Positions 5,727 to 31,721 of a stretch of 42,730 nt of DNA are shown piece by piece. A program made the position numbers and the translations under genes. Below the pieces are notes generated by a model. That model was given only the letters and a program-made list of their open reading frames with translations, was not told where the DNA came from and ran no database searches. Numbering within the stretch: the first letter of the stretch is position 1; every line of letters begins with the position of its first letter. This stretch comes from a virus. The DNA lies in the IMG/VR virus record IMGVR_UViG_3300042484_000777, positions 1-42,730 of that record. One strand, given 5' to 3'.

Positions 5727-5729
5727 TTG

Positions 5730-13091: not shown

Positions 13092-13096
13092 AACTT

Positions 13097-13339
13097 ATGA
13101 TACTGAGAGAATTATTTTATTTGGATCCTGAAACGCAACGAGTCAGCAACGACTTTCGTTTCAATTCAGCACGAGACATAGAAGAATTACAGCGTAGTGA
13201 CACACGTAAAACTAGATTGACATTGGGTCAAGTCAACGAATTACGCAAAGCATCTGAAGCACATATCTTAGAACAAGAAGAAGAATTGGAGTTTGTACAC
13301 GAAATGTACGGAGCAACTCCAGAGCCAGCAGCCGCCTAA
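13097..13339 (+). CDS. Small acidic helical protein between portal and core genes, unknown
   Basis: The 80-residue protein starts MILRELFYLDPETQRVSNDF. It is helical and charged, with an acidic stretch LEQEEELEFVHEMYG before a Pro/Ala tail. I start at the ATG at 13097; a TTG at 13082 in the same frame overlaps the portal end and is less likely. In T4 the small core protein gp67 (80 residues) occupies this slot, but the gp67-like sequence is in the gene at 14036, so this one is unassigned. A capsid or core role is inferred from position only. Confidence 0.65.
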   Translation: MILRELFYLDPETQRVSNDFRFNSARDIEELQRSDTRKTRLTLGQVNELRKASEAHILEQEEELEFVHEMYGATPEPAAA

Positions 13340-13371
13340 CTCACTAAAAGATAATTACTTTTAGGAGAGTT
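13338..13371 (+). promoter_or_regulatory. Hairpin covering the ribosome site of the 13373 gene
   Basis: CTAAAAG (13344-13350) pairs with CTTTTAG (13358-13364) around ATAATTA. AACTC (13338-13342) pairs with GAGTT (13367-13371) after small bulges. The AGGAG ribosome site (13363-13367) is largely inside the stem, so translation on long transcripts may be repressed. Confidence 0.5.
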
Positions 13372-13372
13372 T

Positions 13373-13957: not shown

Positions 13958-13992
13958 AATCATGCCATTATAACACATATTTCGTCATAATA

Positions 13993-14000
13993 TGTAAATA
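13993..14000 (+). promoter_or_regulatory. Late promoter candidate (TGTAAATA) for core and capsid genes
   Basis: TGTAAATA lies 35 bases before the ATG at 14036, with a TAGGAG ribosome site between. A 7-bp hairpin ACATATT/AATATGT (13975-13995) precedes and overlaps it by three bases. It would give a strong separate transcript for the gp67-like, 21, 22 and 23 genes. Confidence 0.55.
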
Positions 14001-14035
14001 TTACTGACAGCTCACAATCTATAGGAGATTTAAAA

Positions 14036-14911: not shown

Positions 14912-14918
14912 TTAGCAT

Positions 14919-15554
14919 ATGCAAAAGATGAACTATCTTCGTGAGAACCTCAGCTTTGACCAAGCCCGTATGGTGGTTGAGTCTGAGGGTGAAAACGGGA
15001 AAAACTTGTACATGAAAGGTATCTGTATACAGGGCGGCATTAAAAATGCTAACCAACGTGTATATCCTGTAGACGAGATTGAGCGAGCTGTCAAAACTTT
15101 GAACGATCAAATTACTGGCGGATATAGTGTACTAGGCGAAGTAGATCATCCAGATGACTTAAAAATAAATTTGGACCGTGTTAGCCACATGATTACTGAA
15201 ATGTGGATGGACGGTCCAAATGGTTATGGAAAGTTCAAGATTCTGCCAACTCCAATGGGCCAACTAGTGCGAACTATGTTGGAATCCGGCGTAAAGTTGG
15301 GAGTTTCCAGTCGAGGCTCAGGTAACGTCAGTGGTGACGGAACTGGAAGAGTCAGCGATTTTGAGATTATCACAGTAGATGTGGTAGCTCAACCCAGTGC
15401 ACCAGGTGCATATCCAACACCAATTTACGAACACTTAATGGGAACAAGAGGTGGTCTTAATGCCTTGCGTATAGCGCAAGAGGTGAAGGGTGACCCTAAA
15501 GCACAGCGTTATCTTAAAGAGAGCTTATTAGGTATAATAAGCAAGCTCCAATAA
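14919..15554 (+). CDS. gp21: Prohead core protease gp21
   Basis: The 211-residue protein has the length and motifs of the T4 prohead protease (MEROPS S80-type, T4 gp21 212 residues): GGYSVLGEVDHPDD with His77, and GVKLGVSSRGSG with the active Ser at 130 or 131. The following FEIITVDVVAQPSAPGA supplies the third conserved block. It cuts scaffold, core and capsid proteins after (I/L)-x-E. Two in-frame ATGs (14919 and 14928) are possible; neither has a clear ribosome site, so translation may be coupled to the gene before it. Confidence 0.92.
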   Translation: MQKMNYLRENLSFDQARMVVESEGENGKNLYMKGICIQGGIKNANQRVYPVDEIERAVKTLNDQITGGYSVLGEVDHPDDLKINLDRVSHMITEMWMDGPNGYGKFKILPTPMGQLVRTMLESGVKLGVSSRGSGNVSGDGTGRVSDFEIITVDVVAQPSAPGAYPTPIYEHLMGTRGGLNALRIAQEVKGDPKAQRYLKESLLGIISKLQ

Positions 15555-15567
15555 AAAGGAGAATCAC

Positions 15568-16662
15568 ATGTTGGATGTTTTAAAAAATCTATTTGAGAAC
15601 AATGTGATTTCTGAGGAACTCAAAGCTCAGATTGAGGAATCATGGCAAACTCGTGTAAACGAGAATCGTGAAGCTGTCACTCAAGAGTTAAGAGAAGAGT
15701 TTAGTCAACGATATGAACACGATCGTCAAGTGATGGTAGAAGCCATTGACCGCATGGTCAGTGATCAACTAGCACCTGAAATTGCTGAATTTATTGAAGA
15801 CCGCGCTCAGTTAGCCGAAGCTAAAGCCAAGTATGCAGTTAAGATGAAACAAGATGCACAGGTTATGAAGGAATTCGTAACTCGTCAACTAGCTTCTGAA
15901 GTAAGAGAATTGCATGAAGACCAAAAAGTCATGGCTGATAAATTCTTCAAACTAGAAGAATTTGTAGTAGAAGCACTAGCCAATGAAATTGCCGAGTTTT
16001 ATAAAGACAAGCAGGATCTAGCTGAAACGAAAGTTCGCTTGATCCGTGAAGGTAAAAAACAACTTGCTGGTATTAAATCTGAGTTTGTAAGTCGCGCAGC
16101 CAAGATGGTTGAATCTGTAGTTGAGACTAGTTTGAAGAATGAACTAACACAACTACGTGAAGACATTGACGCCGCACGTAAAGCAGACTTTGGACGTAAA
16201 ATATTCGAAGCTTTTAGCAACGAATTCCAAACAAGTTACATTAATGAAAAATCAGAAACTGCAAAATTGCTCAAGGTCATAGACAAGAAACAATTTGACG
16301 TTGTTGAGGCACAAACTGTTGCCGTGACAGCACAAAAAATTATAGAAAGCAAAGAGGCAGAGATCCGTGCATTGAAAGAAAGCATGGTGAGAAAATCAAC
16401 TATGGGTGAACTATTGGCACCGTTAAATTCGGACCAAAAAGAAATCATGGGTGAATTATTAGAAAGTGTGCAGACCGCAAAACTGCATGACAGTTTTAAC
16501 AAGTATTTGCCTACAGTAATTGAAGGCAATGCTCCGCAGAAGAAACAGGCTCTTGTAGAGGCAAAAGAAATTACAGGAAATAAAATTTCCAACAGCAACC
16601 GTAGCAGTGAGAACGACAATAACATCGTTGATATTCGTCGACTCGCTGGACTAAAAATTTAA
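15568..16662 (+). CDS. gp22: Prohead scaffold protein gp22
   Basis: The 364-residue protein is almost entirely charged helix and coiled coil (Glu, Lys, Ala, Gln, Arg), lying between the protease and the major capsid gene as T4 gp22 does. It contains many potential gp21 cleavage sites of the type I-x-E or L-x-E (for example IAEFI, LAEAK), as expected for a scaffold that is degraded to small peptides. It is longer than T4 gp22 (269). The ribosome site AAAGGAG is good. The C-terminus ends VDIRRLAGLKI, which resembles gp22 ends that bind the shell. The call rests on position, composition and these motifs. Confidence 0.88.
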   Translation: MLDVLKNLFENNVISEELKAQIEESWQTRVNENREAVTQELREEFSQRYEHDRQVMVEAIDRMVSDQLAPEIAEFIEDRAQLAEAKAKYAVKMKQDAQVMKEFVTRQLASEVRELHEDQKVMADKFFKLEEFVVEALANEIAEFYKDKQDLAETKVRLIREGKKQLAGIKSEFVSRAAKMVESVVETSLKNELTQLREDIDAARKADFGRKIFEAFSNEFQTSYINEKSETAKLLKVIDKKQFDVVEAQTVAVTAQKIIESKEAEIRALKESMVRKSTMGELLAPLNSDQKEIMGELLESVQTAKLHDSFNKYLPTVIEGNAPQKKQALVEAKEITGNKISNSNRSSENDNNIVDIRRLAGLKI

Positions 16663-16673
16663 GGAGAATTTAA

Positions 16674-17843
16674 ATGTCAGAACTACTACACGGCCGTTGG
16701 CAGGAAACTAAAGAGGCCCTACTTGAAGGCCTACAAGGTACCAAGCGCACAGTTATGTCAACTACTCTCGAGAACACTCGCAAGTATTTGTCAGAATCTG
16801 CTTCAACTGGTTCTACTTCTGCCGGCAACGTCGCAACACTAAATCGCGTGATCCTTCCAGTGATCCGTCGCGTTATGCCTACCGTTATTGCTAACGAGTT
16901 AGTAGGTGTACAACCAATGACTGGTCCAGTTGGTCAAATCCATACACTACGTGTTCGCTACAGCGATACACTAAGTGGTACATATGGTGCTACTGCTGGT
17001 GAAGAGGCATTGAGCCCATTCAAGATTGCTGAAGGCTATTCCGCTAATAACGGTTCAGCTGTAACAGCCGCAGCCACAGCAGCCTTAGAAGGTGCCGCTG
17101 GTAAGCGTATGTCTATTCAGATCTTGAAACAAACAGTTGAAGCTAAGACACGTAAGTTATCAGCTCGCTGGACTTTCGAGGCTGCTCAAGATGCACAAGC
17201 CCAACAAGGCATTGACATCGAAGCAGAAATCATGGCTGCTTTAGCTCAAGAAATTACTGCTGAAATTGATCAAGAGATCATTTCTTCATTAACAACTTTA
17301 GCTGGTACACAAAACCGTCAACAATACGACCAAGCTGCCGTTAGCGGTACAGCAACATTCGTAGGTGATGAACATGCTGCCTTGGCAGTTATGATCAACC
17401 GCGTTGCTAATACCATTGCCCAACGTACACGTCGTGGCGCTGGTAACTGGGCAGTTGTAAGCCCAACAGCATTGACAATTCTACAAAGTGCTACAACTTC
17501 TGCGTTCGCAAGAACAACAGAAGGTACTTTCGAAGCACCTACAAACACTAAGTTTGTTGGTACATTGAATGGCGCAATGAAGATTTATGTTAATACCTAT
17601 GCACAAAACGACACAATCGTTGTTGGCTACAAAGGTACAGCTGAAAGTGATGCAGCCGCATTCTATTGCCCATACATTCCATTGATGAGCAGTGGAGTTG
17701 TTCTTGACCCAACAACATTCGAACCAGTCGTTTCATTCATGACACGTTATGGTTATGTTGAGTTGTCAAACACAGCAAGTTCTTTAGGTAATGCCGCTGA
17801 TTACCTAGGTACAGTTACTATTGCTAACGCAGTATTCAGCTAA
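16674..17843 (+). CDS. gp23: Major capsid protein gp23
   Basis: The 389-residue protein is a T4 gp23-type HK97-fold major capsid protein. Conserved features are LNRVILPVIRRVMPTVIANE near residues 56-75, VGVQPMTGPVGQIHTLRVRY, LSARWTFEAAQD, and GNWAVVSPTALTIL. It is clearly shorter than T4 gp23 (521), with the N-terminal region before the LNRVILPV block about 55 residues long. A likely gp21 cut site is L-S-E41 before S42; L-L-E18 before G19 is another. It has the strong AAGGAG ribosome site expected for the most abundant protein and is followed by a strong terminator. Confidence 0.95.
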   Translation: MSELLHGRWQETKEALLEGLQGTKRTVMSTTLENTRKYLSESASTGSTSAGNVATLNRVILPVIRRVMPTVIANELVGVQPMTGPVGQIHTLRVRYSDTLSGTYGATAGEEALSPFKIAEGYSANNGSAVTAAATAALEGAAGKRMSIQILKQTVEAKTRKLSARWTFEAAQDAQAQQGIDIEAEIMAALAQEITAEIDQEIISSLTTLAGTQNRQQYDQAAVSGTATFVGDEHAALAVMINRVANTIAQRTRRGAGNWAVVSPTALTILQSATTSAFARTTEGTFEAPTNTKFVGTLNGAMKIYVNTYAQNDTIVVGYKGTAESDAAAFYCPYIPLMSSGVVLDPTTFEPVVSFMTRYGYVELSNTASSLGNAADYLGTVTIANAVFS

Positions 17844-17871
17844 TCAACATACCGAAAGGTTGTAGATTATG

Positions 17872-17898
17872 AAAGGGACTCTTCGGAGTCCTTTTTTT
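17872..17898 (+). terminator. Rho-independent terminator with UUCG loop after gp23
   Basis: GGACTC (17876-17881) pairs with GAGTCC (17886-17891) around a TTCG loop closed by C-G, followed by seven Ts (17892-17898) and preceded by As. This is a textbook terminator ending the head operon 28 bases after the gp23 stop. Confidence 0.95.
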
Positions 17899-17904
17899 AT
17901 TCCA

Positions 17905-17912
17905 GCTAAATA
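17905..17912 (+). promoter_or_regulatory. Late promoter candidate (GCTAAATA) for the first fibre operon
   Basis: GCTAAATA follows 6 bases after the gp23 terminator. It would start a transcript near 17918 with an 80-base leader that can form ATTCAC/GTGAAT (17922-17938) and GCGG/CCGC (17945-17960) hairpins before the AAGGAG site and the ATG at 17999. Confidence 0.6.
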
Positions 17913-17998
17913 CATAGTAATGATTCACATGGGGTGAATTTTATGCGGAAATCCAACCGCGTACGGTCTAGAACGCCGTTATTCTTAAGGAGAACAAA

Positions 17999-18379
17999 AT
18001 GGGACGTCCAATTAATAAAAGATGGTTTGGCACAACAGGTACTGGTACAGGTACTGGAAAATTTTCAGGCAACAACTTGCCTATTAGATTTAAACTAGGT
18101 GGCACAGTATACGAAGGTTACATTACTAAGCAAACAGGTAGCAACCGTTATAGAGTAAGTACTGACGATGGCTCAACTGCCACAGGTACTGTATATTTAA
18201 AAAATGCAATTCTTCCAGCAAATAATGGCGAAGGAGCCTTAGTAGGTTTCTTTAACGGCAGTGCTACACTTATTAGAGATCTAAGAAGTAGAATTGCTAT
18301 TGATTATAGTGGTGTAAGATACAAGTGGACATTATCAGATGACTCTACTGAAACATTAATTATATTAACAGCTATCTAA
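17999..18379 (+). CDS. Small virion structural protein, unknown
   Basis: A 126-residue protein starting MGRPINKRWFGTTGTGTGTG. A short Gly/Thr repeat leads to a beta-rich body (FKLGGTVYEGYITKQTGSNR, later SGVRYKWTLSDDSTE). It is the first gene after the gp23 terminator and its own late promoter, with a strong AAGGAG site. Similar short proteins with the MGRPINK start occur near capsid genes of T4-like aquatic phages, in my recollection, without known role. A head decoration or virion surface protein is a reasonable guess. Confidence 0.75.
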   Translation: MGRPINKRWFGTTGTGTGTGKFSGNNLPIRFKLGGTVYEGYITKQTGSNRYRVSTDDGSTATGTVYLKNAILPANNGEGALVGFFNGSATLIRDLRSRIAIDYSGVRYKWTLSDDSTETLIILTAI

Positions 18380-18380
18380 T

Positions 18381-19382
18381 ATGTCAAAAGTTGTCAAAGT
18401 ACAAGATGGTAACTATCGCATAGTTACACAACTTAATGGTACAATTACTTTAGATACCGGGGCTCAACTTGGTAGTGTAATTGTTACGGGTGATTTGGTT
18501 GTATTGGGTAATACCACTACAGTTGATTCTGAAACTTTGACAATCAAAGACAACATTGTTTATATAAACGTGGGTGAAACTGGCAACGGTATCACTTTAG
18601 AAAAAGCGGGACTTGACATTGATCGAGGAAATCGTGGTGTAGTAAGTTTTTACTACAATGAAAATTTATCTCATATCAAAAACGATGGCACGATTGGTGT
18701 TGGGTCTTTCAGCTTGATTCACAGTTCAGGAAATGAAGTAAACGAAATATCAGGATTAAATGTGGGTTCTCTAAACACTCAAATAACTGGTGGCTGGAGA
18801 GACTTAACAATATACACGGGCCCAACAGTGGGCGGTGGAACACTTTCAGTTAGTGGCACACCAGATTACGAATTACGTGTGACAGATGATGATGACATTC
18901 CAAACAAAAAATTTGTTAACGACTATGTGGCAGCGGCAAGCGGACAAGCACTAGTTGACCAATTTTATAGATTTAACAGCGCAACATCAACTAGATACAA
19001 TACTGGTGGTAGAGCATATGACACTGGTGCTGGCGATGCAGCCAGCAAAATTGTATTTGAAGTTGACGGGCAAACACAAGGTCAATTTGATCTTACAGGA
19101 TTCTCTGTAAACGATATAACAATTAATGACACTGTAATATCAACCACAGTGTCAAACGCAAATTTAGAATTACGTCCAAACGGTAGTGGTCTTGTGCAAA
19201 TACAATCAGCAGTTGCACTAGCTGATTTGGCTTCAGATCCAAGTTCAACCAGTGGACAAAACAAACTATATAGTAAAGCAACGCAAGGCCCTGGCGGCAC
19301 TGGCATTAATTTTGTAAACGCTACTACATCTGGTGAATTAATCAGCAGTAAGAAAGCGTTGCTTTACGCATTACTATTTTAA
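18381..19382 (+). CDS. Fibre-like virion protein
   Basis: The 333-residue protein carries modules shared with the large fibres downstream. GDLVVLGNTTTVDSETLTIK near residues 36-55 is the G-N-x-x-V-x-G-T-T-T-V block also present at 27963 and 20347. Near residues 246-275, TISTTVSNANLELRPNGSG-type sequence matches the repeat in the 2300-residue fibre. Between them, PNKKFVNDYVAAASGQALVD resembles short coiled segments of fibres. The C-terminus ends SSKKALLYALLF. It is probably a beta-rich trimeric fibre or collar component. It starts 1 base after the preceding stop and is followed by three small genes of the same kind. Confidence 0.75.
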   Translation: MSKVVKVQDGNYRIVTQLNGTITLDTGAQLGSVIVTGDLVVLGNTTTVDSETLTIKDNIVYINVGETGNGITLEKAGLDIDRGNRGVVSFYYNENLSHIKNDGTIGVGSFSLIHSSGNEVNEISGLNVGSLNTQITGGWRDLTIYTGPTVGGGTLSVSGTPDYELRVTDDDDIPNKKFVNDYVAAASGQALVDQFYRFNSATSTRYNTGGRAYDTGAGDAASKIVFEVDGQTQGQFDLTGFSVNDITINDTVISTTVSNANLELRPNGSGLVQIQSAVALADLASDPSSTSGQNKLYSKATQGPGGTGINFVNATTSGELISSKKALLYALLF

Positions 19383-19391
19383 GGAACCAGC

Positions 19392-19712
19392 ATGGCAATC
19401 GAAAGCACACTAATTACAAGCACTCCAACAGCAATTTTCACTTGCCCAGCAGGTCAAGAATTTGCCTTAACAACCATGTTCTTTTGTAATTATAGCGGAT
19501 CAGATGTTGTTTTACAATCATTGAATTTGGTGCCAAGCGGTGGATCTGCAAGTGCTACAAATAGAATTGTACATAATTTAACTATACCAGCTGGCGAAAC
19601 ATTTACATTTGACAGTGAAAAAATTATTTTAGGTTCAGGTGATTTTGTCAGTGCAGTTGTGGATGCGGATACTAGATTAAACGTGACGTTCTGTACATTA
19701 AGAGTTAGCTAA
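19392..19712 (+). CDS. Small beta-sandwich-like virion protein
   Basis: The 106-residue protein starts with MAIESTLITSTPTAIFTCPA and is made of alternating beta strands, with a central IPAGETFTFDSEK turn. The plan (short strands, IPAG in the middle, final VTFCTLRV strand) resembles the 110-residue protein at 27253, which also has an IPAG turn and ends in a SVLEI strand. This is a small virion protein next to fibres, perhaps a fibre connector. The family is not recognised. The AAGGAA site before the ATG is adequate. Confidence 0.72.
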   Translation: MAIESTLITSTPTAIFTCPAGQEFALTTMFFCNYSGSDVVLQSLNLVPSGGSASATNRIVHNLTIPAGETFTFDSEKIILGSGDFVSAVVDADTRLNVTFCTLRVS

Positions 19713-19713
19713 T

Positions 19714-20217
19714 ATGAAGTTTTTAAAGAAATTACAACTGGCAAAAAAGAATCTTACTGACGACAGAATTGCTGTTGACGCCAATTCATTGGTGTACTTT
19801 GAATCAACTAATGCAATAAAATTGCCAATTGGTACAACAAATCAACAACCTGGACAAAGCGGTAATACAGTTACTAGTCCAGCTAATGGTATGGTTAGAT
19901 ATAATTCTAGTACTAATGAATTTGAAGCACGTCAGAATGGTGCTTGGCGAAATGTTAGATTTAAAGAAGCAACAACAATTACACAACAAAGTGCTGGTAC
20001 CGGTGACGGCACTGAAACAAAATTTGGACCTTTAAGTCCAGTTCCAACGGCGGCACAAAACGTTTTAGTATTAGTTGAAAACGTCATGCAAATAGCAACA
20101 ACAAACTACACCTTGGTACAAAACCCAGGCGGATATGCCGCTGGTTGGTACATTTCCTTTACCAGTGCAGTACCCGTTGGCAAACCTGTAACAGTACTAC
20201 ACGGTTTCGACCAGTAA
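19714..20217 (+). CDS. Short fibre-module protein with QRP/RYN block
   Basis: The 167-residue protein has a helical start (MKFLKKLQLAKKNLTDDRIA). Then comes the fibre module KLPIGTTNQQPGQ, GMVRYNSSTNEFEARQNGAW, seen also in the 2300-residue fibre and in the gene at 39639. It ends with a beta domain, GDGTETKFGPLSPVP then VLVENVMQIATTNYTLV, of the type found at the end of the large fibre. It lies 1 base after the previous gene and ends the first small-gene group. Likely a fibre-associated connector or a short fibre. Confidence 0.72.
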   Translation: MKFLKKLQLAKKNLTDDRIAVDANSLVYFESTNAIKLPIGTTNQQPGQSGNTVTSPANGMVRYNSSTNEFEARQNGAWRNVRFKEATTITQQSAGTGDGTETKFGPLSPVPTAAQNVLVLVENVMQIATTNYTLVQNPGGYAAGWYISFTSAVPVGKPVTVLHGFDQ

Positions 20218-20238
20218 ACCCCCTTTATTCCAATTTCC

Positions 20239-20246
20239 GATAAATA
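20239..20246 (+). promoter_or_regulatory. Late promoter candidate (GATAAATA) for the giant fibre
   Basis: GATAAATA is identical to the copies at 8678 and 27936. It lies 100 bases before the ATG at 20347 and opens a structured leader. Confidence 0.6.
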
Positions 20247-20281
20247 TATTTGCACACGCTAAACTAAGTTTGGCTGGGCTA

Positions 20282-20337
20282 TTAGACTGTGGTAAACCCG
20301 CAATGTAAGGTGGTTATCCGTGTAACACGGTGTCTAA
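20282..20337 (+). other. Structured leader of the giant fibre gene
   Basis: TTAGAC (20282-20287) pairs with GTCTAA (20332-20337), enclosing a CCGTG-TAA-CACGG hairpin (20318-20330) and a GTGG/CC-rich segment. The closing stem ends next to the AAGGAG ribosome site, so folding may affect translation start. Confidence 0.45.
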
Positions 20338-20346
20338 GGAGAGCGT

Positions 20347-23300
20347 ATGGCCATTGGTCGAATTTCCGGTCCGCTCTTGAAAGAAGATTTGCTTCGTGAT
20401 GAAGTAAATTTGGCTTTTGAGACGAACCTACTGTATCTTGATGTTAATACCCATGCCGCTGATGTTGCAAGTAATCCGCTGGATTCAACCTTGTGGACTG
20501 GTAACATTGGTATTAGAAATACCAATCCCGCTTATCCCTTAGACATAACAGGCACACTTCGTGCAACAAACATCAGAGGCGGATTGCTGGATATTGACAA
20601 CGTCAATATTAATGGCAACACTATCACTACCAGCGTTGGTGGATTGATATTAGACACAGCCACAAACTCTGACAATGTAACAATCAACAGTGACGTATTA
20701 ATCAACGGTAACTTACATGCTACTGGTAGTATTACTGCTGACGGGTCATTAACACTGGGTGATGCAAATACAGACAACGTGGTATTTGCCGCAGACATCA
20801 ATAGTGACTTTTATCCAAACATCACTGACACTTATAATTTAGGTGGCACTAGCAAACGCTGGAACAAAGCACACTTAGCAATAGCAGAAATTGGTGATGT
20901 TTATGTATCTAGCAGTACAGTTACTAGTAGCTTAACCAATGGCAATTTAAATTTAAACAGCAACGGTTCTGGATTTGTTGTAATTAACGGTTCGTTGACT
21001 ATCAGTTCTAACGGCACTGTATCTTTACCAAGAGACATTACTGTAGGTGGAAATTTAACAGTAGTTGGCGATATCATTGGCGGCCCACTACGCACTGACG
21101 ACATACAAATTGTTGGCAATAGAATTGAAACAACAAGTTCAAATAGCAATTTTGAAATTAATACAGTTGGTACTGGTTCAATTGAATTATTGGCAAATTC
21201 AAACGTAACTGGTACATTTGGAGTTAGTGGACTATCAACACTGGCTCAAGCACAGATTAGTGACTTAACTAGTGGTCGTGTGACATATGCCAGTACTAGC
21301 GGTAGGCTAGTTGACAGCGGTAACTTGACATTTAGCGGAACAACATTAACAGTTACTGGTAACGAAACAGTGACTGGGTTGGCAACTCTAGCACAGGCTC
21401 AAGTTAGTGATTTAACTAGCGGTCGAGTAACATTTGCTGGAACAAGTGGAAGACTTCAAGACAGTAGCGCACTAACATTTGCTAACGGTACATTAACTGT
21501 AGGAACAAGTGTAAGTGTAAGTGGCACTGGCGGCGATATCACAATGACTGGTGGTAATATCACTGGTGTTGGTAACATATCAACCGTTGGATTATCTGTA
21601 AGCAACAATGCAACTATCAGTGGTACATTATATGTAACTGGTGATATTGTAGGTGGTCCATTACGCACAGATGACATACAGATTGTTGGTAATAGAATTG
21701 AAACAACCAGTTCAAATAGCAATTTTGAAATCAATACAGTTGGTACTGGCACAATTGAATTGTTGGCAAATTCAAACGTAACTGGTACGTTTGGTGTAAG
21801 TGGTCTATCAACATTGGCTCAAGCACAGATAACTGACTTAACCAGCGGTCGTGTAACATATGCCAGTACCAGCGGCAGATTAATTGACAGCGCAAATTTT
21901 ACTTTCAATGGCTTTACTCTAACTGTAACTGGTGACGAGACAGTAACTGGAACAGCAACAGTAGGTAATTTAGTTGTAAACGGATCTACCACACTTTCTG
22001 GTCCAATAGCTACTAATGATAATTTAACTGTTGGCGGAACACTGTACGTAACTGGTGATATTGTAGGTGGTCCATTACGTACAGATGACATACAGATCGT
22101 TGGCAATAGGATTGAAACTACTGCCACAAACAGCAACTTTGAAGTTAATACTGTTGGCACTGGTAGCATTGAATTGCTGGCCAACACAAATGTTACTGGC
22201 AACTTGGGTGTAAGCGGCAATGTTGATGTAACTGGTAACATTACACTAGGCGGTAATATCCGCATTGGTGACACAACTCTTGATACAATCAATGTAGTTG
22301 CAGATTTTACCAGTGATCTAGTACCAGATGTAGGTAACTCATTTGATCTTGGTACTGGCACAAAACCTTGGCGAGTAATCTACGCCGCAGAATTTAATAA
22401 TGGTGTTATTCGTATTGACGATAACATTATTACAACCACAGTTTCAAATGCTAATTTAGATTTACGTGCTAATGGAACTGGCAATATAGTATTAGCCAAC
22501 CACGTAACTGTTGAGGGTGTAACAAGCACAGGCGCAACTGGTACCAGACAGTTTGTATTTGATACAAGTCCAACAATTAGCGGAGCAACATTAACTAACC
22601 ACGTAACTGTTGAAGGCGTAACAAGCACTGGAGCAACTGGTACTGGAAATATTGTATTTTCAGCAAGCCCAACTGTAACTGGAACGCTAACGATAACTGG
22701 TAATCAAACAGTTACGGGTACAATTACAACTAATAATTTAACAGTAAACGATAATGCCACAGTAAGTGGAACACTATACGTAACTGGTGATATTGTAGGC
22801 GGTCCATTACGTACTGATGACATACAGATCGTTGGCAATAGAATTGAGACCACTGCTACAAATAGCAATTTTGAAGTTAACACAACAGGTACTGGCACAA
22901 TTGAACTACTAGCTGACACAAATGTAACTGGCAATTTAAATGTCAGCGGCAGTATAGATGTGGTTGGTGACATAACACTGGGCGGAAATATCCGTATTGG
23001 TGACACAACTTTAGATAGCGTTACAGTTGTTGCCGACTTTACCAGTGATTTGATTCCAAATACCAGCAATGAATATGACTTAGGTACCAGTGCAAAACAG
23101 TGGCGAGTATTAAATGCCGCAGAATTTAACAACGGTGTTATCCGCATTGACGATAACACTATTAAAACTACAGTATCTAATGCAAATTTAGAATTAGATA
23201 CAAATGGCACTGGGTCCATTGAATTACAATCTAATACTAACATCACTGGTAATATTACAGTAAGTGGTGGAACAACCAGTACTATTAATGGTATTACAAT

Positions 23301-26300
23301 TACTGGCACTACTATTGATTCTAATGACAGTTCTGGAATCACATTTACACCAATAACTACTTTTAATAGTGACGTTAACGTAGAAAATAATTTATACGTT
23401 AGAAATAAAACAACAACAAATGATTTACTAGTTGAAGGTAATTTAACAATACTAGGTACCGAAACGGTAATTAACTCTACATCATTTAGTATCACTGACG
23501 GATTGATCTATTTAGGTGAAGATAATCAATCCAATGTAATTGATTTAGGATTTGTTGCAAGTTATAATGATGGAACCTACCAACATACTGGGCTAGTAAG
23601 AGACGCCACTGACGGAAAATGGAAATTATTCAGTGGGGTTATAGATGAGCCAAGTTTAATTATAAATTTTAATCAAGCATCTTATGCAACATTAAAATTA
23701 GGCTCCCTTGAATCTAACAATATATTAGATTCTAGTTTGACTACTGGAAGAGTTGTACTAGCAGGAATAGATGGCAAATTAGAAGACAGTTCTAACCTCA
23801 CATTTAACGGATCTAATCTAGCAGTAAATGGATCTACTACAATAAGTGGTACGCTAACAGTAACAGGTGATATTGTAGGCGGCCCACTACGCACTGACGA
23901 CATACAAATTGTTGGCAATAGAATTGAAACAACCAGTTCAAATAGCAATTTTGAAATTAATACAACGGGCACAGGCACAATTGAATTACTGGCCAACAGT
24001 AAAGTTACTGGAACATTTGAAGCAACTGGTCTAAGCACACTAGCACAAGCACAAGTTAGTGATTTAATTAGTGGCAGAGTTATATATACCAGCACAAGCG
24101 GTCGTCTAGTTGACAGTCCAAGTTTAACATTTAATGGAACAACCCTAATTGTAACCGGCGATGAAACAGTCACTGGAACAGCAACCTTGGGCAATTTAGT
24201 TGTAAACGGATCTACAACATTAACTGGACCAATTACTACTAGCGACAATTTAACTGTTGGCGGAACATTATACGTAACTGGCGACATTGTAGGTGGCTCG
24301 CTACGCACATCTGACATACAAATTGTTGGCAATCGTATTGAAACAACAAGTTCAAATAGCAATTTTGAAATTAATACTGTTGGCACTGGTTCAATTGAAT
24401 TATTAACTAACTCAAATGTTACTGGAACGTTCAGTGTAAGCGAATTAAGCACACTGGCACAGGCACAAGTTACTGATTTAACTAGCGGTCGTATTACCTA
24501 TGCTGGTGCAAGTGGTCGATTGATTGATAGTGGTAATTTAACATTTAGCGGATCAACTCTAACTGTAACTGGAAATGAAACTGTAACTGGAACAGCAACA
24601 TTAGGCAGTTTATTAGTAAACGGATTTACAACATTAACTGGACCAGCAATTGCCAGTGACACGTTAACTGTTGCTGGAACACTATATGTAACTGGCGACA
24701 TTGTGGGCGGGCCATTACGCACAGATGATATACAAATTGTTGGCAATAGAATTGAGACCACGGCCACAAATAGCAATTTTGAAGTCAATACAACGGGCAC
24801 AGGCTCAATTGAATTACTTGCTGATACAAACGTAACTGGTAATTTAAATGTTAGTGGCAGTGTTGATGTTACGGGTAACATTACACTGGGTGGAAATATC
24901 CGCATTGGTGATACCACATTAGACAATGTCACAGTTGTTGCTGATTTCACCAGTGACCTAATACCAAATGCCAGCAATGAATATGACTTAGGCACAGCAA
25001 ACAAAGCATGGCGCAATGTTTACGCTGGACAAATTGACGTAGACGGTATTAGAATTGATACCACAACAATTAGCACAGTTAATTCAAATGCAAACTTGGA
25101 ATTGACACCAAGTGGCACTGGAATCGTTTACATTAACGGCACTGGTGCAATTAGAATCCCAACTGGTAATACATTTCAACGTCCAGCAACAGGCGAAGCT
25201 GGATTTATTAGATTCAACAATCAAACAAACAACATTGAAGCATGGAATGGTGTAACATTTGCTGGAATTAGCGGTGGATCAAGTAGCGATACTAACGGCG
25301 ACACATTAATTTCCTATGAAACTGGCGGAAACAACGAAGACATTATTAGATTCTTTACTGGTGTTGCTGGTCTAACAGCTGGAAGCAGTATTGGCAGTGT
25401 AGAGCAAGTACAAATTAGCAGTACTGGTCTAAATGTTATTAGAAACCTAACAGTTGGCAACGATTTTACTGTCACAGGCAATGCAACAATCAGTGAAATT
25501 ACAACTGACGATGTTCGTATCAGTGGCAACAGAATATCAACTACGCAAAGTAACAGCAATTTAGAACTAACATCAAATGGTGCAGGATTCGTTTTAGTTC
25601 AAGACACACTAAATGTAACTGAAAACTTATCAGTCACAGGTATTAGTACACTGACAAGTGCTGTCATAGATAATGTAACAATTAACAATGATTTAACAGT
25701 TACGGGCAATGCAACAATCAGTGAAATTACAACTGACGATGTTCGTATCAGTGGCAACAGAATATCAACAACACAAAGTAACAGCAATTTAGAACTAACA
25801 TCAAATGGTACAGGAGTAGTTTCTGTACAGGACACACTGAGTGTAGCAGAAGATTTGTCAGTAACGGGCACTAGCACATTAGCAAGAGCCAATGTAAGCG
25901 ACTTAACAGATGGTAGAATTACCTATGCTGGTGCTAGTGGTCGCTTAAAAGACAGTGCAAATTTAGCGTTCAACGGCACAACACTGGCATTAACTGGTAA
26001 TCAAACAATTAGTGGCACATTAACTGTTGGTGGAGTGGATGTTAGCGGAGCCGCATCATTTGATAATGTTGCAATTACTGAATTATTGGTAAATGGACGC
26101 ATACACATATACGATAACGTCATTGAAAACACATTAACCAATGATGATTTAATAATTCGTGCAAACGGAACTGGTAGAGTTATCATTGATGGTGCTGGAA
26201 CTTCAGAAGGTTCTGGAAATATCTACGCAACCGATCCTTTACTAACTTTAAACAGCGCCAAAACAACAAGCAACACATATGATAGCGGTATTATTATTGA

Positions 26301-27249
26301 ACGCGGCACTGACATTAACGTTGGTTTAATTTGGGACGAAAGCGAAGACCAGTTTGCATTTATAAGAACAATTGAACAAGGTACTGTAAAAGGCAATGTT
26401 GCTATTACTGGCTACCAAGATTTAACTGTTGGCACTGTAAAACTCAATAGTGAAACTGCAAGTAAAGTTACTTTCACTGATGCAAGCAAGTATGTAAGAA
26501 GTTTAGATACTGGAACTACTGCTTACGTTGATGGCGTTATTAAATTTAACACTGGAGCACAGGCAGCAATCCCAACTGGATCAACTGCACAACGTCCAGC
26601 AAGCCCACAAGAAGGCACAATACGTTATAACACAACTGTTCAACAGTTTGAAGGTTATGCAGACAGCAGTTGGCAAGCAATGGGATTTGGTGCAGGCACT
26701 GCTCCAAGCTATCAAGGCTTTTTGGCAGATGGTACACAGTTTGAATTTACACTAAATCAAGTGCCGCTAAGTAGCGCAGGTATTATTGTGGCAATTAACG
26801 GCGTTGTTCAAGAACCAGAAATTGCCTACACAGTTGATAATGCAATTTTACGCTTTATTGATGATACAAGCACAGTGGTTGCACCAGATGTTGGTGACAG
26901 AATTGACGTAAGATTCCTAAGTAAGCCAGCAGTAAGCACAGTTAGAACCAGTAACTTTACTGGTGACGATACTACAACAGCATTTGATACTGGCTATACT
27001 ATTGGCAGTATTGAAACAGTGTTAGTATTTGTCAACAGCATTTATCAAGACACAGATGTTTACTCAGTAAGTGGTAGATCTGTTGTATTTGACGAAGCTC
27101 CATATCAAGACGATAGAGTTAACATTGTTAATATCACAACAATAGTAGCACCAGATTTACCAACAAAAACTTACGTGGACCAACAGATAACTCAGGTAAG
27201 TAATACTGCTACAGACGATGCCATAGCATTTGCAATAGCACTAGGATAA
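20347..27249 (+). CDS. Giant repeat tail fibre (2300 residues)
   Basis: The N-terminus (MAIGRISGPLLKEDLLRDEV) is probably the attachment part. Residues ~236-1580 contain seven copies of a module beginning TLYVTGDIVGGPLRTDDIQI then VGNRIETTSSNSNFEIN. Copies come in two types, one continuing with LSTLAQAQ-SDLTSGR, the other with ITLGGNIRIGDTTLD. Two shorter tandem repeats follow (residues ~1710-1820). Near 2070 is the IPTGSTAQRP/IRYN module, then two beta modules with INGVVQ and VNSIYQ, and a C-terminus with LPTKTYVDQQI. There is no S74 chaperone domain. The repeats are beta-rich and suggest a long fibre shaft, likely trimeric. It follows a late promoter and a strong AAGGAG site. The call as a fibre is confident; the receptor is unknown. 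Confidence 0.85.
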   Translation: MAIGRISGPLLKEDLLRDEVNLAFETNLLYLDVNTHAADVASNPLDSTLWTGNIGIRNTNPAYPLDITGTLRATNIRGGLLDIDNVNINGNTITTSVGGLILDTATNSDNVTINSDVLINGNLHATGSITADGSLTLGDANTDNVVFAADINSDFYPNITDTYNLGGTSKRWNKAHLAIAEIGDVYVSSSTVTSSLTNGNLNLNSNGSGFVVINGSLTISSNGTVSLPRDITVGGNLTVVGDIIGGPLRTDDIQIVGNRIETTSSNSNFEINTVGTGSIELLANSNVTGTFGVSGLSTLAQAQISDLTSGRVTYASTSGRLVDSGNLTFSGTTLTVTGNETVTGLATLAQAQVSDLTSGRVTFAGTSGRLQDSSALTFANGTLTVGTSVSVSGTGGDITMTGGNITGVGNISTVGLSVSNNATISGTLYVTGDIVGGPLRTDDIQIVGNRIETTSSNSNFEINTVGTGTIELLANSNVTGTFGVSGLSTLAQAQITDLTSGRVTYASTSGRLIDSANFTFNGFTLTVTGDETVTGTATVGNLVVNGSTTLSGPIATNDNLTVGGTLYVTGDIVGGPLRTDDIQIVGNRIETTATNSNFEVNTVGTGSIELLANTNVTGNLGVSGNVDVTGNITLGGNIRIGDTTLDTINVVADFTSDLVPDVGNSFDLGTGTKPWRVIYAAEFNNGVIRIDDNIITTTVSNANLDLRANGTGNIVLANHVTVEGVTSTGATGTRQFVFDTSPTISGATLTNHVTVEGVTSTGATGTGNIVFSASPTVTGTLTITGNQTVTGTITTNNLTVNDNATVSGTLYVTGDIVGGPLRTDDIQIVGNRIETTATNSNFEVNTTGTGTIELLADTNVTGNLNVSGSIDVVGDITLGGNIRIGDTTLDSVTVVADFTSDLIPNTSNEYDLGTSAKQWRVLNAAEFNNGVIRIDDNTIKTTVSNANLELDTNGTGSIELQSNTNITGNITVSGGTTSTINGITITGTTIDSNDSSGITFTPITTFNSDVNVENNLYVRNKTTTNDLLVEGNLTILGTETVINSTSFSITDGLIYLGEDNQSNVIDLGFVASYNDGTYQHTGLVRDATDGKWKLFSGVIDEPSLIINFNQASYATLKLGSLESNNILDSSLTTGRVVLAGIDGKLEDSSNLTFNGSNLAVNGSTTISGTLTVTGDIVGGPLRTDDIQIVGNRIETTSSNSNFEINTTGTGTIELLANSKVTGTFEATGLSTLAQAQVSDLISGRVIYTSTSGRLVDSPSLTFNGTTLIVTGDETVTGTATLGNLVVNGSTTLTGPITTSDNLTVGGTLYVTGDIVGGSLRTSDIQIVGNRIETTSSNSNFEINTVGTGSIELLTNSNVTGTFSVSELSTLAQAQVTDLTSGRITYAGASGRLIDSGNLTFSGSTLTVTGNETVTGTATLGSLLVNGFTTLTGPAIASDTLTVAGTLYVTGDIVGGPLRTDDIQIVGNRIETTATNSNFEVNTTGTGSIELLADTNVTGNLNVSGSVDVTGNITLGGNIRIGDTTLDNVTVVADFTSDLIPNASNEYDLGTANKAWRNVYAGQIDVDGIRIDTTTISTVNSNANLELTPSGTGIVYINGTGAIRIPTGNTFQRPATGEAGFIRFNNQTNNIEAWNGVTFAGISGGSSSDTNGDTLISYETGGNNEDIIRFFTGVAGLTAGSSIGSVEQVQISSTGLNVIRNLTVGNDFTVTGNATISEITTDDVRISGNRISTTQSNSNLELTSNGAGFVLVQDTLNVTENLSVTGISTLTSAVIDNVTINNDLTVTGNATISEITTDDVRISGNRISTTQSNSNLELTSNGTGVVSVQDTLSVAEDLSVTGTSTLARANVSDLTDGRITYAGASGRLKDSANLAFNGTTLALTGNQTISGTLTVGGVDVSGAASFDNVAITELLVNGRIHIYDNVIENTLTNDDLIIRANGTGRVIIDGAGTSEGSGNIYATDPLLTLNSAKTTSNTYDSGIIIERGTDINVGLIWDESEDQFAFIRTIEQGTVKGNVAITGYQDLTVGTVKLNSETASKVTFTDASKYVRSLDTGTTAYVDGVIKFNTGAQAAIPTGSTAQRPASPQEGTIRYNTTVQQFEGYADSSWQAMGFGAGTAPSYQGFLADGTQFEFTLNQVPLSSAGIIVAINGVVQEPEIAYTVDNAILRFIDDTSTVVAPDVGDRIDVRFLSKPAVSTVRTSNFTGDDTTTAFDTGYTIGSIETVLVFVNSIYQDTDVYSVSGRSVVFDEAPYQDDRVNIVNITTIVAPDLPTKTYVDQQITQVSNTATDDAIAFAIALG
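21052..25092 (+). repeat. Seven-copy DNA repeat inside the giant fibre
   Basis: The module starts at about 21052, 21625, 22039, 22771, 23851, 24265 and 24679. The spacing 21625-22039, 23851-24265 and 24265-24679 is exactly 414 bases (138 codons). Copies share long near-identical stretches around GATATTGTAGGTGGTCCATT and differ mainly at third positions, so they can recombine or slip. Confidence 0.85.
25477..25809 (+). repeat. Two 105-bp near-identical direct repeats
   Basis: Positions 25477-25581 and 25705-25809 (228 bases apart) differ at only two of 105 bases. They encode the GNATISEITTDDVRISGNR module twice. The near identity including third positions points to a recent duplication or gene conversion. 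Confidence 0.9.
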
Positions 27250-27252
27250 AAA

Positions 27253-27585
27253 ATGTCAAATCAATTTAATAAAACGCTGAATACAAACATAGGAACTACA
27301 GAAACTACTGTGTACTCTACTGGAGCAACAACAAGAGCTACGGTTATTGGCATCAACATTGCAAATACCACAACAAATACTGTTTATGTGGATATAAAGT
27401 TGCGAGATGAAACCAGTACATCAGGATATATTGTAAAAGGTGCTGAGATTCCAGCAGGAAGTGCATTGGCCGCAATGGGCGGAGATCAAAAACTAGTCAT
27501 GGAACCCCTAAACTATTTGTTGGTCAATAGTGACACCGCTGCCAGCATAGATGTTATCGTATCAGTATTGGAGATCATATCATGA
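27253..27585 (+). CDS. Small beta-rich virion protein
   Basis: A 110-residue protein beginning MSNQFNKTLNTNIGTTETTV. Its beta strands are arranged around an IPAGSALAAMGGDQK turn, and it ends with DVIVSVLEI. This resembles in plan the 106-residue protein at 19392. Such proteins sit between fibre genes in T4-like aquatic phages, probably as connectors; no known function. It starts 3 bases after the giant fibre stop and its stop overlaps the next ATG (ATGA), so the group is co-translated. Confidence 0.75.
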   Translation: MSNQFNKTLNTNIGTTETTVYSTGATTRATVIGINIANTTTNTVYVDIKLRDETSTSGYIVKGAEIPAGSALAAMGGDQKLVMEPLNYLLVNSDTAASIDVIVSVLEIIS

Positions 27586-27962: not shown

Positions 27963-30900
27963 ATGGCAGATTTTAACCTAGGTAGACTTAGATTTGTATG
28001 GAAAGGCAACTGGGCCTTGGGTACAGCATATGTACGAGATGATGTCGTAAAATTCGGCGGATCGTCTTATGTTTGCGTAACCGCACATACCAGTGTAACT
28101 TCATTTGCTACAAACAGTAGCAAGTTTGAGCTTATGACTGAGGGCGGTACACCCACAACTACCTTGGGTGATATATCATATCGAGGATCAAGTGCTGATC
28201 AAAGGTTGGCCATTGGCACAACTGGACAAGCACTACTGGTTAGTAGTTCAGGTATCCCAGCTTGGACAGGTCTAGTTGAAGCACAAAATGTTTACTACGT
28301 CAGCGAAGACGGTAGTGATGCAAATGATGGTAAGAATTTAAACAAAGCCTTTAGAACTATCAAGTATGCTTGCAGTCAAGTAGTTGGACCTGCTGTGATA
28401 CAGGTCAAAACAGGTGTTTATCAAGAACAATTGCCGCTGGTAGTACCTGCTGGTGTTAGTGTTATCGGTGACAGTCAAAGAACCACTGAAATACAGCCAG
28501 TAAATATCTCAGCAACTGGTGCAACTCGTGTGGCCACAACTGGCGCTGGTACTAGTACAACAATCATTGTACAAAATAGTCAAACAACTGGTAATGAATG
28601 GCAAGTGGGTGCAACATTAAGCGGTACAGGAATTGGCGGCACTGTTACAATTACATCCATTGCAACCAATACACCAACAAGTGGCTTTACCACACTCACT
28701 GTGAGTTTCACAAGCCAAGCAGTCACTGCTGGCACAGTAACTATAATAAGCAATTACAGTGAAGGCACAATGTGGCAGTTGAGCAACGGTGCGTTGTTAC
28801 ACAAGATGTTTTTTACTGGCATGACTGGCTTTAGTCCAAGTTTGTCAGCCCCAGAAGATATACGTGAAGCCACAATCAAAGGTGTGTACGTAGCATTAAA
28901 CCCAGACAGCCCTATAACAAGTAAAAGTCCCTATGTGTTAGAATGTAGCAGTTTCAGTACAGGTGGTATTGGTGCTGTAGTTGATGGTGACGTACATGCC
29001 ACTGGCAACAAGTCAATCGTGTTTCACGCATACACTTGTATCAACAGTGATGGTGTAGGATTTTGGGTCAATGGACAAGGCAAAGCAGAAATTGTTTCAT
29101 GCTTTACTTATTTCTGCTGGTTTGGTTACACAACAACCAATGGCGGTAAGATTCGATCACTAAGTGGTAACAACAGTTACGGTCGATATGGTGTAGTCAG
29201 TAAGGGATTTGATGTCACAGAGACAACAATTGATGGAACTGTATATGGCAATCAATTGGAACACACGGCTCTAAGTAGAGTAGGTGAATTCACAGTCAAC
29301 GAAACAATTACTGGTGCATCAAGTGGTGCAGTTGGTACTATAACCAATGTGCAAACTGGTGCTAATAAATTATATTACAAAATTACCAGTGGTACGTTTA
29401 CAGCTGGTGAAACAATTACTGGTAGTACTAGTGGCGCAACAGCAACTATTGCCACTGGCGGAGTAACTGGACAAAAAGGCTTTGTACTTGTACTAACTGG
29501 GCTAGCCAGTGAGCCAAAAATTGGTGGATCAATTGAATTTACTACTGGTGACACCGGCAGTTATGTGATAAAGGCTGTAAGTGGCACTTATGTAAACAGT
29601 TCAAGTAGAATAATAGTGTCGCTTGCGGGTGAAAAAGTAACGGCCAGTACTGATGGTACTGCATTTAAGATTCGTTATGCATTCAGTCAATCAAGACTTA
29701 CTGGACATGACTTTTTAAGCATTGGCACTGGTAATGCAACACAGACCAATTACCCAGGCACGCCAAGTCTATTGCCAAGTCAAGCAAACGAAGTTATTGA
29801 AACGTATCCAGGTCGTGTGTTCTATGTAAGTACCGACCAAGACGGTAACTTTAGAGTAGGTGATTACTTCAAAGTTGACCAAGCAACTGGTAGTGCTACA
29901 CTTAATGCCAACGCTTTTGACTTATCTGGATTGACAAGTTTACGTTTAGGATCAATTGGTGCGCAATTAGGCGAGCTGGTTAGTGAATTTTCAAGCGATG
30001 ACACGCTAAGTGGTAATAGTAATTCAGCTGTGCCAACAGAAGCGGCTGTTAGAAATTACTTTCCACAGGTAGCAACAAACATTATTCCTAGTAATGACAA
30101 TAGTCAAGACTTAGGTAGTCCAAGCAAACGTTGGGCACACGTATACGTTGGTCCTGGAAGCGTAACCATTGGCACATTAACCTTAACAGACAATAGCGGT
30201 GCATTTACAGTTAGCAGTTCAACAGCTACACCGCCAACACTAAGCGTTCCAGAAATAAACACTGGCAGTGTTCGTTACTTCCAAAACAACATCATCGGTG
30301 GAAACAGTAACGAAGATATCATTATTGACACCAGTGGTACTGGTAAGTTACAAGTTTTAGCTGATTTAAATATGACTGGCACACTAAGTGGACCAGCTAC
30401 ATTCAATATTGACCCAGCGGCAGTGGGAGATAATACAGGTACTGTTGTTATCAAAGGCAATTTGCAAGTGGACGGCACAACAACCACAGTTAATTCAACA
30501 ACATTGACTGTTGCTGATAAAAATATTGTGTTAGGTAGTGGCGCTGCCAATGATGCGGCAGCTGATGGATCAGGTATCACTGTAGAATCTGGTGATGGTA
30601 ACAAAACACTTAACTGGGTTGACGCTACAGATGCATGGACATCAAGTGAAGATTTTAATTTATTAACTGGCAAAAGTTATGAAATTGCTGGTACTGTTGT
30701 ATTATCAAGTAGCGAAGTATTGGGTACACCAACTACAGCAACTCTTGCTGGAGCAGCCACAACATTAGGCATTGGTGGATCAAGCGGTACCGTAACAATT
30801 GGCAACGCAACAATTACTGCCACAAACGCAACATCACTAAACTTAAATGGTGCAAGTCCAAGTATCACCACTAGTAGTAATGGTACTGCCAGTGTGTTTA

Positions 30901-31721
30901 CAACAAATGCCTTAACTGGTAACTTGTTCAGCGCGGCAACTACAATAACATTGGGTTATAACAGCACAGCTGGATCGACGATTAATATTTCAACTGGTGC
31001 AGTTGGGTCAGGTAATACCAAAACAGTCAACATAGGTACTGGAGCGGCAGCAGGATCTACTACAACTGTCAACATTGGCTCAAGTACTGGCACAGCAACA
31101 GCACAAGTGTATGGTAAGTTGGCCATAATGGGATCAAGTACTGGCAGTGTTGGACTTCAAGCGGCAGCAAGTGCTGGATCAGCAACATACATACTACCTA
31201 ATGCATTGCCTGGAACTAGTGGATTTGCACTGGTCAGTGATACCAGTGGTAATATGAGTTGGGCGGCAGCTGGTGCAGCCATTACCACTGACACAAGTAC
31301 AACTACATTGTATCCCGCAATGAGTACAAGTACTAGCGGAAACTTCACAGCGGCCAAAGTAAACACTGGAATTACATTTAATGGCACAACTGGTGTACTA
31401 ACTACCAGCGGTGGCTTTGTTGAAAGTTCAAGTATAGCGTTAAAAGAAAATGTAAATCCAATTACTGGCGCATTAGACGCAATTATGAGTCTAGTTGGTG
31501 TTACATATGATCGTAAAGATGGTAGTAAACAGAATGAAGCTGGTTTAATTGCTGAAGCAGTGGAACAAGTTATTCCAAATATTGTAAGCAAGGATGCAAA
31601 TGGCAACGCTGAAGGTATTTACTACTCAAAACTAACAGCATACCTAGTAGAAGCTATTAAATCTCTAAAAGCTGAGATAGATCCGCTTAAGGAAGAAATT
31701 AAGAAGTTAAAGGGAGAGTAA
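27963..31721 (+). CDS. Tail fibre with beta-helix and C-terminal S74-type chaperone
   Basis: The 1252-residue protein starts MADFNLGRLRFVWKGNW. Residues ~1-60 resemble a small carbohydrate-binding module (W-x-G-x-W then Y-x-x-DDVV then YVCVTAH). Residues ~110-310 look like a beta-helix with an IKYACSQVVGPAVIQVKTG start. The middle is Gly/Thr/Ser-rich beta repeats, including a GNLQVDGTTTTVNSTTLTV block near residue 835. The last 98 residues, from about 1155, form a peptidase S74/endosialidase chaperone-type domain (SSIALKENVNPI, later GLIAEAVEQVIPN, a YSKL motif and a coiled-coil end). In known fibres this domain aids trimer folding and cuts itself off before the Ser, with a nearby Lys. A paralogous copy begins at 42319. 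Confidence 0.85.
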   Translation: MADFNLGRLRFVWKGNWALGTAYVRDDVVKFGGSSYVCVTAHTSVTSFATNSSKFELMTEGGTPTTTLGDISYRGSSADQRLAIGTTGQALLVSSSGIPAWTGLVEAQNVYYVSEDGSDANDGKNLNKAFRTIKYACSQVVGPAVIQVKTGVYQEQLPLVVPAGVSVIGDSQRTTEIQPVNISATGATRVATTGAGTSTTIIVQNSQTTGNEWQVGATLSGTGIGGTVTITSIATNTPTSGFTTLTVSFTSQAVTAGTVTIISNYSEGTMWQLSNGALLHKMFFTGMTGFSPSLSAPEDIREATIKGVYVALNPDSPITSKSPYVLECSSFSTGGIGAVVDGDVHATGNKSIVFHAYTCINSDGVGFWVNGQGKAEIVSCFTYFCWFGYTTTNGGKIRSLSGNNSYGRYGVVSKGFDVTETTIDGTVYGNQLEHTALSRVGEFTVNETITGASSGAVGTITNVQTGANKLYYKITSGTFTAGETITGSTSGATATIATGGVTGQKGFVLVLTGLASEPKIGGSIEFTTGDTGSYVIKAVSGTYVNSSSRIIVSLAGEKVTASTDGTAFKIRYAFSQSRLTGHDFLSIGTGNATQTNYPGTPSLLPSQANEVIETYPGRVFYVSTDQDGNFRVGDYFKVDQATGSATLNANAFDLSGLTSLRLGSIGAQLGELVSEFSSDDTLSGNSNSAVPTEAAVRNYFPQVATNIIPSNDNSQDLGSPSKRWAHVYVGPGSVTIGTLTLTDNSGAFTVSSSTATPPTLSVPEINTGSVRYFQNNIIGGNSNEDIIIDTSGTGKLQVLADLNMTGTLSGPATFNIDPAAVGDNTGTVVIKGNLQVDGTTTTVNSTTLTVADKNIVLGSGAANDAAADGSGITVESGDGNKTLNWVDATDAWTSSEDFNLLTGKSYEIAGTVVLSSSEVLGTPTTATLAGAATTLGIGGSSGTVTIGNATITATNATSLNLNGASPSITTSSNGTASVFTTNALTGNLFSAATTITLGYNSTAGSTINISTGAVGSGNTKTVNIGTGAAAGSTTTVNIGSSTGTATAQVYGKLAIMGSSTGSVGLQAAASAGSATYILPNALPGTSGFALVSDTSGNMSWAAAGAAITTDTSTTTLYPAMSTSTSGNFTAAKVNTGITFNGTTGVLTTSGGFVESSSIALKENVNPITGALDAIMSLVGVTYDRKDGSKQNEAGLIAEAVEQVIPNIVSKDANGNAEGIYYSKLTAYLVEAIKSLKAEIDPLKEEIKKLKGE

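Follow-up and report, generated by a model that had tools for sequence, protein, structure and literature searches.

A 2300-residue modular protein gene from the virion region of a phage: conserved ends and in-frame replacement of interior modules

Introduction

How does a phage gene that is built largely from repeated modules change its length and content, and what might such a gene encode? The question is raised by a single open reading frame in an entire virus record of 42,730 bases (hereafter, the window), which may be an incomplete piece of a phage genome. A sequence-only reading of this DNA described the gene as a giant fiber gene with a 414-nt period and two alternating module types, proposed that it had grown by duplication of blocks, and suggested that it can lengthen or shorten by recombination. 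In our analysis, the gene has conserved ends and an interior assembled from recurring units, and in a close relative part of that interior has been replaced in frame, with the breaks lying in shared sequence. We describe its architecture, the age of its modules and its relatives in other contigs, and then consider what may have produced this pattern.

Results

Genomic setting

The portal and major capsid proteins of the window match the PHROG families portal protein and major head protein, respectively, and the best 15 of the 2483 records matched by the capsid protein are phages of 284–469 kb, with 63–69% identity. We read the source phage as T4-like and jumbo-related, the T4-like label being based partly on the gene order portal, protease, scaffold and capsid, which we take to be that of T4-like phages. 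The modular gene is located 2.5 kb beyond the capsid gene, and a gene with a Peptidase_S74 domain follows it at a distance of 0.7 kb (Table 1). Several other genes in the window have features of their own. Three adjacent large genes at 31723–34557, 34557–37187 and 37208–39628 (944, 876 and 806 aa) have similar glycine-rich products, in which VEVLVVAGGGG-type stretches recur, and look like tandem paralogs. In the protein encoded at 40592–41845, we found a Major tropism determinant N-terminal domain (PF18454, E = 1.9e-15) along with two weak alpha units (see below), and a small open reading frame at 5727–6155 starts with FVYLITNVISGRKYIGKK, which we take to be GIY-YIG-like.

Table 1. Coordinates of the modular gene, its parts and its neighbors in the window
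Feature	Coordinates	Strand	Basis
Major capsid protein (context)	16674..17843	+	PHROG and record matches
Whole gene, 2300 aa, putative fiber- or adhesin-type protein	20347..27249	+	Single ORF; no cysteine; T/G/N/S-rich
Conserved N-terminal cap, aa 1–75 (MAIGRISGPLL...)	20347..20571	+	Profile matches in relatives
Divergent first B copy (B0): gamma aa 133–174, alpha aa 183–220	20596..21048	+	Unit profiles; tree groups it with single B of short relatives
Module 1, type A with second beta unit, 573 nt	21052..21624	+	Opening map, unit profiles
Interval with most of A1 and A2; in L084, 340 nt of another module type	21213..21942	+	L084 alignment
Module 2, type A, 414 nt	21625..22038	+	Opening map, alignment
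Module 3, type B with spacer, 732 nt	22039..22770	+	Opening map
Part of opening 3 where L084 resembles window module 4, not module 3	22039..22185	+	Site comparison
Module 4, type B with long insert, 1080 nt	22771..23850	+	Opening map
Module 5, type A, 414 nt	23851..24264	+	Opening map, alignment
Module 6, type A, 414 nt	24265..24678	+	Opening map, alignment
Module 7, type B, core	24679..25176	+	Opening map
Near-C-terminal alpha-bearing repeat, copy 1	25448..25661	+	85% identical to copy 2
Near-C-terminal alpha-bearing repeat, copy 2	25676..25889	+	Repeat search
Beta unit without A opening, aa 1841–1884	25867..25998	+	Unit profiles
C-terminal cap, ends DDAIAFAIALG and stop	27214..27249	+	Like ending in L142–L146, L148
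Small downstream gene, synteny marker	27253..27585	+	Homologs in relatives
Tail-fiber-like protein with Peptidase_S74 chaperone domain (context)	27963..31721	+	Pfam and PHROG matches

Repeat architecture

Seven copies of a shared opening (GDI.GG.LRT.DIQI) were located at 21067, 21640, 22054, 22786, 23866, 24280 and 24694, spaced 573, 414, 732, 1080, 414 and 414 nt apart, and this map bears out the arrangement A A B B A A B of two module types, marked by LAQAQ (A) and NIRIGDTTLD (B). Of the six spacings, three are exactly 414 nt, as had been claimed, but only the last two are adjacent; likewise, the opening does recur in all seven modules, but TLYVTGDIVGGPLRTDDIQI is preserved exactly only in modules 2, 3, 4 and 7, with variants in modules 1, 5 and 6. 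Tandem Repeats Finder recovered a 414-nt array at 23860–24818 (score 1169), and among 300-nt copies, six match a seventh at 61–81%. The gene contains exact repeats of 65 nt, the greatest length found, and of 56 nt.

At the protein level, the interior consists of units of ~45–50 aa with spacers between them, for which profiles recognized 14 alpha, 7 beta and 4 gamma copies. Alpha is the heart of the shared opening, and an A module is made up of alpha and beta, a B module of alpha, gamma and a further alpha. The alpha units of the seven openings have E-values of 8e-27 to 2e-22 against the alpha profile, which measure likeness and are not an independent test because the profile was built from these units. 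The 414-nt period corresponds to an A module of 138 aa, without indels across modules 2, 5 and 6; module 1 is longer than the other A modules and contains a second beta unit. Earlier inspection had overlooked the divergent B copy with its gamma unit at aa 133–174, a degenerate beta unit at aa 1129–1162, and two copies of a repeat near the C-terminus that share 85% identity and start 228 nt apart (25448 and 25676), together with extra alpha and beta units. An alignment that puts the beta units of two A modules on gamma columns gives only a hint that beta and gamma may be alternatives in one slot.

Putative function of the product

The protein is rich in T, G, N and S, lacks cysteine, and is probably a surface fiber. 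This assignment draws on the nearby S74 tail-fiber gene, on beta-like sequence in fiber records, and on lectin-like domains in relatives: the beta unit resembles stretches of two records annotated as “tail fiber protein” and one annotated as “endo n acetylneuraminidase,” and the domains of relatives are described below. The virion location, fold and shaft length of the product are inferred. The 2300-aa protein itself matched no named tail-fiber family in PHROG, Pfam or the PDB sequences. Its seven PHROG matches are all of unknown function, Pfam gave weak matches below the cut-off and nothing more, and at E ≤ 0.1 neither a Peptidase_S74 domain nor any BACON model was among its matches. The PDB sequence search returned nothing at E ≤ 1, including the solved T4 fibers, to which no sequence relation was thus found.

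Structure prediction yielded no confident fold in either of two single-chain models. The model of the N-terminal cap with B0/A1 was set aside at a mean pLDDT of 50.5, while that of A2 and B3 reached 69.6. At E ≤ 0.001, the latter had one match in BFVD (9.6e-4, unnamed) and none in the PDB. At E ≤ 10, 11 of 12 PDB chains were phage fibers or phage/pyocin spikes, with T4 gp34 first at E = 5.6; given this best value, the structure matches are compatible with a fiber, and no more. On a second look, chitinase ChiW (Z = 4.3 over 60 residues) and the R2 pyocin spike (Z = 3.4 over 50 residues) were rejected as too weak.

Age of the module copies

The module copies are old and under purifying selection. 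Pairwise, the openings differ by dN of 0.008–0.19 and dS of 0.55 to 3.5, the A cores by dN of 0.07–0.17 and dS of 0.84–1.43, and the B cores by dN of 0.16–0.23 and dS of 1.0–3.0. Because the copies are old, recent change in repeat number is not shown in the window itself. The core divergence also speaks against the proposed block duplication: a simple AAB|AAB event predicts A1-A5, A2-A6 and B3-B7 as the closest pairs, whereas the closest A pair over the module cores is A1-A2 (82% nucleotide identity, against 78% for A1-A5, 78% for A2-A6 and 75% for A5-A6), and B3-B7 is the least alike B pair (67%, against 75% for B3-B4 and 72% for B4-B7), so that we rejected this scenario.

A tree of 54 gamma regions, from which gamma hits below 20 bits, regions shorter than 90 aa, ORFs without the N-terminal cap, and loci repeating a contig or a near-identical phage were excluded, places B3, B4 and B7 in one clade with the two later B copies of the relative L084 (100/99). 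Within it, the partner of B3, and likewise that of B4, is the L084 copy at the corresponding position, and therefore at least the B3/B4 duplication predates the split between the window and L084. B0 groups with the first B of L084 and with the only B copies of L148, L143 and L145, which are short genes (96/87); with B0 in this other clade, derivation of B3, B4 and B7 from the gene’s own first B is not supported.

Interior replacement in a close relative

The one near relative found, L084 (IMGVR_UViG_3300034082_000656, 11,786 bases), is incomplete and ends inside module 4. It aligns with window positions 10962–21212 at 95.1% identity over 10,260 columns and departs from the window inside the first opening, at offset 160 of module 1. 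There, 730 nt of the window are replaced by a 340-nt module of a third type, a difference of 390 nt that keeps the frame. L084 rejoins the window at 21943, before module 3, and continues at 87.5% identity to its end. Over the compared interval there are four openings in the window and three in L084; no beta unit was found with the window-built profiles in the available part of L084, and a search of the phage collection with its third-type module returned nothing at E ≤ 0.01.

The L084 copy of module 3 is itself mosaic. In its first 147 nt, the distinguishing sites favor window module 4 over module 3 by 17:4, and thereafter they favor module 3 by 91:8, a switch reached in 0 of 500 permutations, which deal the labels anew along the sites and ignore relatedness and selection. 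The partial module 4 of L084, compared with window modules 4 and 7, changes from 6:11 to 25:5, which is weaker (5 of 500 permutations); these are the two permuted among four mosaic comparisons made.

Divergence between the window and L084 is uneven along the compared region, with dS of 0.34 in the portal gene, 0.03 in the protease-like gene, 0.07 in the next gene, 0.06 in the capsid gene, 0.36 in the gene at 18381–19382, and 0 and 0.02 in the two genes just upstream of the modular gene, followed by 0.12 in the N-terminus of the latter and 0.27–0.56 in opening 1 and the B modules. Since the portal gene and gene 18381 are also affected, mosaicism is not special to the modular gene. Gene 18381–19382, another virion-region gene, has an alpha unit at 19101–19217 (E = 1.3e-13), and L084 differs most from it at 18750–19250 (84–88% identity between 95% flanks), suggesting that a similar exchange may act there.

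The gene family in other contigs

We define the family as virion-region genes with the MAIGRISG N-terminal cap. The capsid query gave at least 600 matching stretches, from which 80 loci were kept. With the cap profile, the window and 217 other loci (three phage records and 214 from IMG/VR, overlapping loci of one contig being counted) yielded 73 ORF rows, that of the window among them. Of these rows, the window and 18 others, all uncut, lie directly upstream of a homolog of the small downstream gene under a relaxed synteny rule, a stricter first rule having given 8 genes. L145 and L146 are 99.99% identical, and therefore at most 18 of the 19 syntenic genes are distinct. Their products measure 2300 (window), 1558, 1552, 1323, 1112, 1110, 501, 401, 401, 396, 355 (four), 354, 350 (three) and 293 aa. 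Among 76 loci fetched with the downstream gene, an uncut capped gene lies directly upstream in six (L142–L146 and L148), which is not a rate, the upstream side of the remaining 70 being outside the count.

Seven of the 19 syntenic genes, window included, have the ending AIAF(A/S)IALG and both neighboring genes in common, and the short relatives have similar ends and a single gamma unit. The 18 relatives contain at most four alpha, no beta and at most two gamma units, counts that are lower bounds because the profiles were built from the window. Pfam, run on 16 of the 19 proteins, window included, found LamG, a concanavalin-like domain, in L007, L052 and L068, and apart from these inserts no model for the family. 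In a PHROG scan of five relatives, L144 and L068 matched “baseplate wedge subunit” and “virion structural protein,” and L142 is similar to them by eye. Between like ends, L145 and L143 have a stretch of ~100 aa, in which a STFNLFNADASTINAFGAASTITIGA-type piece is repeated, that L148 lacks; this is another module gain or loss. A scan of bacterial and archaeal genomes gave five loci in two MAGs (L221–L225), in which capped genes lie in contigs labeled Neomarinimicrobiota and Rickettsiales; these may be phage contigs binned with bacteria.

Repeat number is thus not invariant among relatives, as L084 has one third-type module in place of two A modules and the 19 syntenic products range from 293 to 2300 aa. 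The proposal that the gene lengthens and shortens by recombination holds in that module content and length differ among relatives, but the changes observed are replacement of modules and a mosaic opening; near-identical repeats were not seen to be gained or lost.

Discussion

The interpretation that we favor, with somewhat better than even confidence, is that a T4-like, jumbo-related phage here encodes a fiber- or adhesin-type virion protein, and that the gene keeps its ends while its interior is recombined at shared openings. The openings would supply homology for ordinary phage homologous recombination, which could swap, add or remove modules while the ends stay in place. If the product forms a fiber shaft, such changes would alter its length or surface and hence host contact.

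Alternatively, in a static ancient array, the modules would have been inherited unchanged, and the contigs would differ because larger regions were replaced between diverged phages, the openings playing no special role. The dS between copies (0.55 to saturation), the pairing of B3 and B4 by position with L084 copies, and the uneven divergence of the portal gene and gene 18381 all agree with this, but one junction in L084 falls inside an opening, and the switch inside its B3 opening (0 of 500 permutations; weaker in B4, 5 of 500) is likewise at odds with it, and we regard it as rather unlikely. Misjoining of reads at repeats during metagenome assembly, in the window or in L084, is very improbable. 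Both are indeed single metagenomic contigs, L084 ends inside module 4, and the gene contains exact repeats of 65 and 56 nt; yet no exact repeat above 65 nt was found in the gene, the third module of L084 is no collapsed copy of window sequence and leaves the frame open, and length varies in independent contigs.

The product could be another long virion component, such as a baseplate-, neck- or whisker-type protein, and not a receptor-contacting tail fiber. We consider this a possibility worth keeping in mind, although on balance an unlikely one. In its favor, two of the five relatives scanned (L144 and L068) match the PHROGs “baseplate wedge subunit” and “virion structural protein,” the capsid gene is 2.5 kb upstream, and the available text on the Rak2-like jumbo phage CBB describes tail whiskers of ~119 nm whose role is unproven (PMC5259590). 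The baseplate labels, however, stem from annotation of shared segments, and the lectin-like LamG domain in three relatives and the fiber-type neighbors argue for a fiber.

There are precedents for such a gene. In all four of four coevolution replicates, the putative tail fiber gene of Enterococcus phage EfV12-phi1 (6.6 kb) acquired an in-frame tandem duplicate of a 1.8-kb segment (PMC6365445). It resembles our case in being a long putative fiber gene with in-frame length change, but its copies are recent, identical and from laboratory selection, whereas here old, diverged module types are replaced in natural contigs. In the T-even phage PP01, the distal tail fiber gene gp37 suffered deletions of 579–686 bp in four of four populations (PMC6027323), also an interior length change in a long-fiber gene, but by deletion in an evolution experiment, and the portion of the report at hand describes no module openings. 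The tail-associated BACON domain arrays of crAss-like phages grew by duplication and domain transfer (PMC6949934); they consist of another domain, and an eight-domain array there keeps a stable order, in contrast to the differing module content of near relatives here. By analogy, the gene may work like these systems. The clearest fiber length changes that we found in print come from laboratory selection (PMC6365445, PMC6027323), and in the portions of the literature consulted on the family and on natural repeat-number variation of fibers, we did not find this gene described. Virion proteins of cyanophages and Methylophilales phages, annotated as hypothetical, baseplate wedge initiator or tail fiber, have single units or interior segments in common with the family; the 2300-aa protein matched 64 records, in every case over less than 80% of its length and at below 60% identity.

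A more far-reaching idea, which we put forward as a doubtful conjecture, is that the ~150-nt opening, common to different module types, acts as a recombination socket for a pool of interior cassettes (A, B, the third type of L084, lectin-like and others) maintained in this phage group. The cassettes would move in frame from phage to phage and from one position to another within a gene, and perhaps also to and from other alpha-carrying virion genes.

Host-contact proteins are among the fastest-changing parts of phages. Here, natural contigs present one syntenic virion-region gene with an approximately eightfold length range and similar ends, and two junctions are located in sequence common to different modules. 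If the socket reading is true, it would represent a cassette-switching route to fiber diversity without a dedicated recombinase, and if the junction pattern holds, “recombine at the opening” would be a rule directly testable by long-read metagenomics.
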